The notes under the pieces were generated by a model, which saw only the letters and a program-made list of their open reading frames with translations, searched no databases and had not been told where the DNA came from. This document shows positions 7,747 through 24,217 of a stretch of 37,746 nucleotides of DNA, one piece after another. The DNA is from Bacillota bacterium (GTDB lineage: Bacteria; Bacillota; Clostridia; Oscillospirales; Oscillospiraceae): NCBI GenBank assembly GCA_029098045.1, contig JAQXNO010000004.1, forward strand, positions 1-37,746. Direction: 5' to 3'. The position numbers were made by a program, and so were the translations under genes. Every line of letters starts with the position of its first letter. Position 1 is the stretch's first letter.

Positions 7747-7962
7747 AGCCGTACAGCATTTTGCTGTACGGCTCAGCTTGTCAAAAAAGTATTTTTGACA
7801 AGCTGCCTATGATTTTCAAACTTTTCAAAAAGTTTGAAAATCGCTTTGATTGGACGCAGTGACAACCCTGACGGTTTTCTTTCACACTTTCTTTCCCTCC
7901 GAAACTTTCGGCTGGGAGGGTTTATTGACAGCCTGAGCCGTACAGCATTTTGCCGTACGGCT
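7747..7962. repeat. 216-bp composite inverted-repeat element (MITE-like)
   Basis: The 42-bp ends are inverted copies of each other (35 of 42 positions identical when 7747-7788 is compared with the reverse complement of 7921-7962). Each end contains its own hairpin, AGCCGTACAGCATTTTGC and partner (7747-7773 and 7936-7962). Inside are further perfect stems: 7775-7787 with 7792-7804, and 7811-7823 with 7830-7842. A CCCTCC/GGGAGG pair (7895-7900 with 7915-7920) encloses a small CCGAAA/TTTCGG hairpin. There is no ORF. It fills the space between convergent thioesterase and udp genes and may serve both as a bidirectional terminator. Confidence 0.75.
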
Positions 7963-7975
7963 CTTCATTTACTGA

Positions 7976-21811: not shown

Positions 21812-22480
21812 TTACTTCCCTCTTCGAAAATACCGGTCACGGTATACGACCAGCTCTGCCAGCAGGCACATGGGCAGCGCCGCGAACAAGTCCAGTGCGG
21901 AATGCTGCTTCACAAACATGATGGAAATACAGATGAGAATCACCCATAGCACCAGGGCGATTTTCCAGACGAGGCTTGCGCTGCGCTCCTTCAGCCAGAC
22001 GGAAGCAATGCCCAGAGAGTAGCCAACATGCAGGGATGGGCAGACGCCGGTGTTGGTATCAAACGCGTATAGTATTCCAACAATTTTTGTCAAAATGTTA
22101 TCCTGTGCGAATTCGGCCGGACGCAGATCCTGCCGGGATGGGAAAATGATATAGATCGTCATTGCTATGACCTGTGTAATGATAATATATTTGGAAAGGC
22201 GTTTGAAGCTGTCGATATTGTAAAGTGCAAAATATCCCAGAGAAAAGACGATCAGAAGATACCAGGAAACATAGGGGATGACAAACCACTCGCAAAAGGG
22301 AATCATATCGTCCAGAGGAATATGGACACTGTAACACTTTTCGGCGGGGATCAGATTCTCCGTGAGAAAATACAGACAAAAGTAACCCACCCAGCCAAAA
22401 AGCAGCTTTAGGTGCGCAAATTGCGGGTCGTTCAGTCTGGAAAGCCGAAACTGGCGGTAATCAACAACTGGTTTTTTCAT
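21812..22480 (-). CDS. PAP2-superfamily membrane phosphatase
   Basis: A 222-residue membrane protein with five or six helices. It shows the C-terminal PAP2 motifs: P148-S-L-H151 (in CPSLHVGYSLG) and H193-x3-D197 (in KQHSALDLF), the catalytic histidines and Asp of lipid phosphate phosphatases. The Arg-rich motif 1 is weak, possibly KRLSKY or PSRQDLRP. It overlaps the acyltransferase-like gene by 20 nt and uses AGAGG inside that gene, so the two are co-translated. Together they suggest phosphatidate or related lipid metabolism; the alternative is an inositol-phosphorylceramide-synthase-like transferase in the same fold. Confidence 0.8.
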   Translation of the reverse strand: MKKPVVDYRQFRLSRLNDPQFAHLKLLFGWVGYFCLYFLTENLIPAEKCYSVHIPLDDMIPFCEWFVIPYVSWYLLIVFSLGYFALYNIDSFKRLSKYIIITQVIAMTIYIIFPSRQDLRPAEFAQDNILTKIVGILYAFDTNTGVCPSLHVGYSLGIASVWLKERSASLVWKIALVLWVILICISIMFVKQHSALDLFAALPMCLLAELVVYRDRYFRRGK

Positions 22481-23234
22481 GGGTAGTAACCTCTTCCGGA
22501 ATATTGTAGGGGTAGTCCTTTTTCGAAATATTGAGATAAGGTACCATCTTGTGCCGGGGCAGCGAAACCGCGATTTCCGTAATCGCATCCATCAGCTTGC
22601 CGGTAATGCGGCGGCGCTCTTCTTTGCCGGGCGCCTCCGGGTCAAAATATACGGGTTCGCCCAGCACCATCTCCCGGAGCTTGGGCGCGAGGTACATGGG
22701 CACAAAGGCCAGTGCTTTCCCGGTCTGGCTGTAGTAGCTTTTCGCCACGCTGACGAAGCCGTCCTGAAAATCACACAGGACATGGTTGTGGGGAGCATCA
22801 TGTTCCGGGAAGATGATCACATTGGCACCATCGCGCAGCTTTTCCACCGTTTCCCGAAGTGTGAGAATGACTCGTTTATCGCGATAGACAGCAATGGTAT
22901 CCGCGCAGTTGAATACGCAGACTGACAGCGGCGCAATGATATAGGACAGCAATTTGTAGAGTGGCTGGAGAACTTTGGGTTTGCGGCTCCAAAAGTCCCG
23001 ATACGCATAGGCCGGTACTTCCTTCATAAACATCATTTCATGAGCACACCAGATATAACGCTTACCGGGAAAGTACAGCTGTCCGGCAATGGGGCCGTTC
23101 ATCTGCGCGTGGTTGCCCACGATCACACAGGGCTCCTCCGGCAGGTTTTCAAGTCCTACCAACTTTATTGGGGGATACAGCAGCTTGATGATCCAATATA
23201 TCAACCGGTAAACCGCATTTTTGAGTATTTTCAC
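22461..23234 (-). CDS. PlsC-like acyltransferase-family protein with altered motifs
   Basis: A 257-residue protein resembling 1-acyl-glycerol-3-phosphate acyltransferases. An N-terminal membrane-associated stretch (RLIYWIIKLLYPPIKLVGLENLP) precedes the motif I region NHAQMNGP (N41, H42). The usual NHx4D Asp is replaced by Gly at position 47, and the usual FPEG motif reads FPEHD. Catalysis may therefore be altered or lost. The GTG at 23234 is chosen: GGAGG lies 8 nt upstream, whereas the in-frame ATG at 23249 has no ribosome site and contains that SD itself. It is co-transcribed with the PAP2 gene, and a structured RNA and terminator lie upstream. Confidence 0.75.
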   Translation of the reverse strand: MKILKNAVYRLIYWIIKLLYPPIKLVGLENLPEEPCVIVGNHAQMNGPIAGQLYFPGKRYIWCAHEMMFMKEVPAYAYRDFWSRKPKVLQPLYKLLSYIIAPLSVCVFNCADTIAVYRDKRVILTLRETVEKLRDGANVIIFPEHDAPHNHVLCDFQDGFVSVAKSYYSQTGKALAFVPMYLAPKLREMVLGEPVYFDPEAPGKEERRRITGKLMDAITEIAVSLPRHKMVPYLNISKKDYPYNIPEEVTTHEKTSC

Positions 23235-23388
23235 ACATTGAACCTCCATTTCGGGAATTTTCAGGCAGTGATAGCAGGTTCTGAACAGCGCTGCGCGACT
23301 AGCGCATAATGCCGACGCTTCGGAAGATGATACATCGGAAATCTAAACTGAAACGAAACAAATGCACCTTCATATTCTCCTGCCTGGC

Positions 23389-23442
23389 AAAAAAGAAAAC
23401 GGCTGAATCAGCACCATGGCTTTCCGGTGGTGCTGATTCAGC
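23389..23442 (-). terminator. strong intrinsic terminator of a gene-free transcript
   Basis: A perfect 15-bp stem, 23402-23416 with 23428-23442, and an 11-nt loop. On the minus strand it is followed by CG and TTTTCTTTTTT (23399-23389). No minus-strand coding gene lies upstream, so it ends a non-coding transcript or acts as an attenuator. Confidence 0.8.
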
Positions 23443-23600
23443 TCTTTCTTGTCTTGGAAAAGCTACGGTTTTCTGACGCTCCCGGAGCGGAAAGCACAAA
23501 AAGCGGCCGCATCAACCACCTCAAAAAACGTGGCGGCGGCTCCCCATCCACGCAAGCGGTCAGCAAAAGCACACAGGACGAACACGGAAACTGCAAAATT
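23390..23600 (-). ncRNA. candidate structured small RNA or attenuating leader
   Basis: This fills the 557-nt gene-free gap at 23250-23806. A minus-strand promoter (23635-23607) would start RNA near 23600, and an intrinsic terminator ends it near 23390, giving about 210 nt with no credible ORF. Internal pairing is visible: the TTTTGCTGACCGC region (about 23567-23555) with GCGTCAGAAAA (about 23478-23468), enclosing a CGTGG/CCACG hairpin and a GCGG/CCGC hairpin. I recognise no Rfam family; 6S RNA has a similar length, but I could not form its full-length rod. It may instead be the regulated leader of the PlsC-like gene that starts at 23234. Confidence 0.55.
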
Positions 23601-23606
23601 TCTCTC

Positions 23607-23635
23607 ATTATAGCTCATTCGGATTAGAAAAACAA
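23607..23635 (-). promoter_or_regulatory. sigma-A promoter for the candidate small RNA
   Basis: Minus-strand TTGTTT (23635-23630), 17 nt, consensus TATAAT (23612-23607). No start codon with a ribosome site follows closely, which is what suggests a non-coding product. Confidence 0.65.
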
Positions 23636-23750
23636 GTCAGAAAAAAGTACCGTATAAGCGCCTCAGTTTTTCGCCCGCGCACAACCATTTGTGTAAATCA
23701 CCACTGATTCATCAATTGCTGTTTCTTCGGCGCTTATGTTTCAAAAGTAC

Positions 23751-23778
23751 TTTACGAATCTCAAAAATGTGATATGAT
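23751..23778 (+). promoter_or_regulatory. probable sigma-A promoter for the small membrane protein
   Basis: TTTACG (23751-23756), 16 nt, TATGAT (23773-23778), 28 nt before the ATG at 23807. The -35 box is weak. Confidence 0.5.
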
Positions 23779-23806
23779 AGAAAAAACAATTTATGGAGGT
23801 ACTGTT

Positions 23807-24217
23807 ATGGATCAGGATCAAAGAACGCTGGAGCTGTTGGAGCGGATTGAAAAGGCAAACCGCAAACAGGTGTTTTATGCGCGTCTGCAGTTCGTATGTA
23901 CCATTGTGGCGGCGCTGTGCTGCAGTCTGCTTCTGTTTGCCGGAATACGAATTCTGCCGGAATTGCAGGCAACAACTGCCCAGGCCGAAACTGTGCTCCA
24001 TAATTTGGAAACCGTCACAACAGAGCTTGCAAAGGCAGATATCGGCGGCATGGTTGCGGATGTGGATGCGCTGGTCAGTACCAGTCAGGTGGGCGTGGAG
24101 CAGGCAATGGCCAAGATCAATGACATCGACTTTGATTCGCTGAACGATGCGATCAAGGATTTGTCCGATGTGATTGAGCCGATTGCCAAGTTCTTTAACA
24201 GCTTTAAATTCAAATAA
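23807..24217 (+). CDS. small single-pass membrane protein with coiled-coil
   Basis: A 136-residue protein I do not recognise. A charged N-terminal helix (DQRTLELLERIEKANRKQ) is followed by one transmembrane helix at about residues 31-52 (TIVAALCCSLLLFAGI). A long heptad-like helical region (about residues 55-130) comes next and the protein ends in a basic FNSFKFK. The layout resembles DUF948-type or chemoreceptor-stalk proteins, but no signalling domain is present. ATG 23807 follows GGAGG by 7 nt. The iron-sulfur aldo/keto reductase lies 57 nt downstream with its own strong ribosome site; a link in function is not evident. Confidence 0.75.
   Translation: MDQDQRTLELLERIEKANRKQVFYARLQFVCTIVAALCCSLLLFAGIRILPELQATTAQAETVLHNLETVTTELAKADIGGMVADVDALVSTSQVGVEQAMAKINDIDFDSLNDAIKDLSDVIEPIAKFFNSFKFK

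Follow-up and report, generated by a model that had tools for sequence, protein, structure and literature searches.

The question raised by this locus is whether the gap between two divergent genes encodes a small RNA of its own. The gap (23235-23806, 572 bp) lies in a stretch of 37,746 nt, which is referred to here as the window. It separates a PlsC-like acyltransferase gene from the gene for a 136-aa protein, and its minus strand carries a promoter-like box and a terminator (Table 1). Such a pair might delimit a small RNA gene, but it might also belong to a regulatory leader, a short protein-coding gene, the remains of a lost gene, or simply a barrier between the two neighbors.

Layout of the promoter-terminator unit

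The TTGTTT-17-TATAAT box reported in the earlier note is present on the minus strand. It scores 9/12, combining a perfect -10 box with a weak -35 box, and owing to the latter it is omitted by an automated promoter scan. In 2000 dinucleotide shuffles of the gap, an exact TATAAT located 16-18 nt from a -35 box with at least 3/6 matches arises in 2.6% of the sequences, and any 9/12 promoter in 49%. Since these fractions of shuffled gaps match equally well, the promoter is plausible and, on its own evidence, suggestive only. Transcription is predicted to start near 23600, and about 165 nt without a credible open reading frame separate the TATAAT box from the terminator stem. Elsewhere in the window, a perfect consensus promoter (TTGACA-17-TATAAT) is located at 2375-2403 on the plus strand, in the gap ahead of the gene at 2679.

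The hairpin and its T-rich tail likewise agree with the earlier description. Among 300 shuffled gaps, no perfect stem is longer than 10 bp, compared with the 15 bp observed; on sequence grounds the terminator is beyond doubt real, far beyond chance expectation. No gene on either strand ends just upstream of it. Next to the hairpin are an A-rich run on one side and a T-rich run on the opposite side, and of the two strands the minus strand has the stronger T tail. Such flanks could act in both directions, as would be expected of a bidirectional terminator that only insulates the divergent genes by halting spurious antisense transcription; the TATAAT box would then be a chance occurrence, which is consistent with some 9/12 promoter being found in about half of the shuffled gaps. 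However, an exact and correctly spaced TATAAT upstream of the terminator on the same strand is the rarer event (2.6%), and insulation alone appears rather improbable. As a separate observation on inverted repeats, another gap of the window (7747-7963) contains a cluster of three perfect ones (7747-7773, 7774-7805, and 7811-7842), and a sequence nearly identical to the first is located at about 7935-7963, reading AGCCGTACAGCATTTTGC[T/C]GTACGGCT.

Table 1. Coordinates of the features in and around the gap (window numbering)
Feature	Position	Strand	Details
Gene with sub-threshold PAP2-like match	21812-22525		Follows the PlsC-like gene
PlsC-like acyltransferase gene	22461..23234	-	GTG start, GGAGG
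-10 box of the PlsC-like gene	23327..23332	-	TATCAT, 10 nt past the direct repeat
Direct repeat, putative OmpR/PhoB-type response regulator site	23343..23359	-	GTTTCG-N5-GTTTAG, 11-bp
T-rich tail of the terminator	23389..23401	-	CGTTTTCTTTTTT (read from the sequence)
Terminator hairpin	23402..23442	-	15-bp perfect stem (arms 23442-23428 and 23416-23402), 11-nt loop; z = -7.3 (minus strand)
Putative transcript body	23443..23600	-	About 158 nt; no excess structure, coding signal, or homologue
Candidate sigma-A promoter	23607..23635	-	-35 TTGTTT (3/6), 17-nt spacer, -10 TATAAT (6/6)
Promoter-like site of the 136-aa gene	23751-23778	+	TTTACG-16-TATGAT
Divergent gene, 136-aa protein	23807..24217	+	ATG at 23807; no family match passes the cut-off

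The most likely start codon of the PlsC-like gene is the GTG at 23234, judging by its ribosome-binding site (GGAGG) and by homologue alignments, which begin at about that point. As the T tract ends at 23389, the gene begins approximately 155 nt past the terminator, a distance that matches the one previously given. The PlsC-like and 136-aa genes are never adjacent in the relatives examined; a search of GTDB contigs with the 136/147-aa protein returned no matches, and the same search with PlsC found none but relatives of around 60% identity. The gap has the appearance of a lineage-specific junction between genes. The G+C content of the transcript body (53.5%) is near the window average and well above that of the gap to its right (39%). 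Both the junction and the base composition would suit a relic, i.e., a promoter and a terminator left over from a small gene that disappeared or decayed when rearrangement created the gap, any transcript of it being functionless.

Coding potential, RNA structure, and conservation

The absence of a credible open reading frame, claimed earlier, is borne out: no frame of the unit scores like the genes of the window. Its six-frame codon scores range from -0.39 to +0.08 and fall inside the off-frame range (-0.34 ± 0.30), as opposed to 0.30 ± 0.16 for the window's genes, and its frames have no match in Pfam or NCBIfam. A frame of 56 codons extends from the -10 box through to the terminator, which might be read as a trace of the lost gene. 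However, a frame of such length is open in 40% of the shuffles, coding codon usage is found in no frame, and a genus-wide search of two minus-strand frames (56 aa and 51 aa) detected no homologue. The relic explanation is possible, although unlikely.

Alternatively, the unit might be the gene of a small protein, encoded either by a 24-aa frame (MRPLFVLSAPGASENRSFSKTRKS) or by the 56-aa or 51-aa frame. The 24-aa frame is preceded by a Shine-Dalgarno-like GAGGTGG about 6 nt ahead of its ATG, and its stop codon is located at the terminator; nevertheless, its coding score is -0.11, compared with 0.30 ± 0.16 for genes. The 56-aa frame has its ATG within the -10 box, hence it could not be expressed from the TTGTTT-17-TATAAT promoter. 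No homologues were found in the genus-wide searches, and those recurrent weak matches that were inspected proved to be off-frame matches to a MalK-type ABC ATPase gene. A small protein is therefore very improbable. Near MalK-type ABC ATPase genes, two congeners carry a malK-I RNA (RF03069), at 2219-2407 of locus L084 (minus strand) and at 729-911 of locus L085 (plus strand).

The earlier note had also proposed internal pairing within the RNA, and this part did not hold. The whole unit folds with z = -2.48, the terminator alone with z = -7.3 (minus strand), and the unit without its terminator with z = +0.70 to +0.92, so that all excess structure is that of the terminator hairpin. In the folding model, pairing within the body is at the level usual for any sequence of the same composition. 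No Rfam family exceeds its gathering threshold in the unit, and relaxing the search to E values of up to 10 adds merely chance matches of the miRNA, DnaX, and RAGATH-35 types. 6S RNA (RF00013), which the unit resembles in its length of near 200 nt and its stand-alone organization, was considered as an identity and rejected: the unit has neither a match to the covariance model nor a fold beyond chance, and the genome's own 6S RNA is encoded elsewhere (15332-15532 of contig C101, 49 bits) and is conserved in the genus.

Conservation in close relatives, which had been put forward as a check on the unit, was found neither in sequence nor in structure among 135 congeners, the closest PlsC being only about 64% identical. 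Searches by blastn detected a homologue of the unit in 0/135 other species of the genus, in none of about 390 genomes of the order, and in no phage or plasmid; an exact 20-nt word was absent from the viral contigs searched. The best three short matches in the genus (25-39 nt) lie inside apparent coding sequence and were taken as chance. No similar unit is found upstream of the PlsC-like or 136-aa homologues. A single-sequence covariance model recovered the locus alone from 136 genomes, a weak test given that the predicted fold has no statistical standing. The same search with the genome's own 6S RNA as a positive control was successful in 122/136 genomes (own included) and in 39/40 of those of good quality. 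The comparison set contains no sister species, as the nearest PlsC homologues are only ~64% identical. In Staphylococcus aureus, bona fide sRNAs are mostly species specific, with 24% found in other Staphylococcaceae (PMC5826253); thus, the missing conservation lowers the probability of an sRNA but does not remove it.

A putative response-regulator motif at the probable PlsC-like promoter

The upstream regions of PlsC-like homologues share the direct repeat GTTTCG-N5-GTTTAG, followed by a -10 box exactly 10 nt later, and in the window this element falls past the terminator and ahead of the PlsC-like gene. A search of 136 genomes with the pattern GTTTMG-N5-GTTTAG-N10-TANNNT gave 30 occurrences, compared with four for the backwards pattern; its free positions are conserved as well (TTTCA/G in the first gap and a T-rich stretch behind the repeat), which marks it as a true motif. 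This genus-wide box, GTTTCGTTTCRGTTTAG-N10-TATNNT, is represented at loci L088-L117, on the minus strand of the window (23327-23359), and on contig C149 of the window's genome (G000), before position 452. According to a reading of their protein sequences, the genes that follow it include those for OmpR/PhoB-type response regulators, PlsC-like acyltransferases, a multi-pass membrane protein family, an FtsH-like protease, and a CoA-dehydratase-activator-like ATPase. In two genomes, the motif-bearing PlsC-like gene is divergent from the regulator gene. The motif is carried by only a minority of PlsC-like homologues, including those of relatives without the promoter-terminator unit. The window's genome encodes an orthologue of the regulator (76% identical) on C149 (452-1051). 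The site also precedes this gene, in a copy that carries two mismatches and again stands 10 nt from TAAAAT. These findings would be explained most simply by an autoregulated two-component regulon, probably of the envelope type, that includes the PlsC-like gene, with the regulator putatively binding the site in the PlsC-like promoter. Searches of literature titles and abstracts found no relevant published counterpart of the motif or the regulon.

As the PlsC-like gene has a promoter motif of its own, it could do without the upstream unit, and the main role of the terminator would be to separate the two. This bears directly on the alternative raised in the earlier note, in which the unit is a riboswitch-like or other attenuator leader of the PlsC-like/PAP2-like pair and its terminator is opened by a ligand, a protein, or a ribosome. 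As in riboswitch and attenuator leaders, the terminator precedes a metabolic gene of the same strand, ending 155 nt before the gene start; in addition, the 24-aa frame with its Shine-Dalgarno-like GAGGTGG ends in a stop codon located in the 5' arm of the terminator. Unlike such leaders, however, the unit has no aptamer family (Rfam yields only the chance matches mentioned above) and no antiterminator was found in it: the 5' arm of the terminator pairs with bases upstream of it at a probability of 0.0 in the ensemble, as computed by a thermodynamic model only. Moreover, the terminator is followed by the genus-wide promoter motif, and no such leader precedes the PlsC-like genes of relatives. The separate promoter motif and the lack of an upstream partner for the terminator arm disfavor the attenuator, which is considered highly unlikely.

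A candidate stand-alone small RNA

The reading preferred here, with a probability of roughly one half, is a species-restricted, stand-alone, non-coding transcription unit, and hence an sRNA candidate. The stand-alone layout first proposed stands in part: the unit has its own promoter-like box, a terminator, and no gene, whereas structure beyond the terminator, a match to Rfam or 6S RNA, and conservation were not found. Among the features by which sRNA genes are recognized, the intrinsic terminator is present, and the unit is non-coding and not opposite a gene; conservation, which is supporting rather than class-defining, is absent. The separate motif of the PlsC-like promoter would make the unit independent of PlsC.

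In such a unit, RNA polymerase would start near 23600 on the minus strand and produce an RNA of about 210 nt without a protein product, and transcription would halt at the strong intrinsic terminator (23442-23389). The terminator would also insulate the PlsC-like gene and its promoter from transcription of the unit. Both transcription and any function of the RNA are inferred from this arrangement. If the RNA is functional, its likeliest mode of action might be base pairing with mRNAs in trans, similarly to species-specific intergenic sRNAs of Firmicutes. The Rsa and Spr RNAs of S. aureus share with the candidate an intergenic location, an own promoter (a predicted one in the candidate), and an intrinsic terminator, as well as a length of 100-300 nt and a narrow phylogenetic range (PMC5826253); the candidate differs from them in having neither a UCCC motif nor a known target. 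The further possibility that it is a functional species-specific sRNA of ~210 nt, which would have evolved at a junction created by rearrangement, would control genes of membrane lipids or the envelope in trans, and would have as its neighbor a gene of an envelope-type two-component regulon, is speculative and decidedly improbable.

If transcribed, the unit would add one more orphan sRNA candidate from an uncultured gut genus of Oscillospiraceae. As a by-product of the analysis, the genus-wide response-regulator box suggests a probable mode of control of the PlsC-like lipid gene and predicts an envelope regulon.
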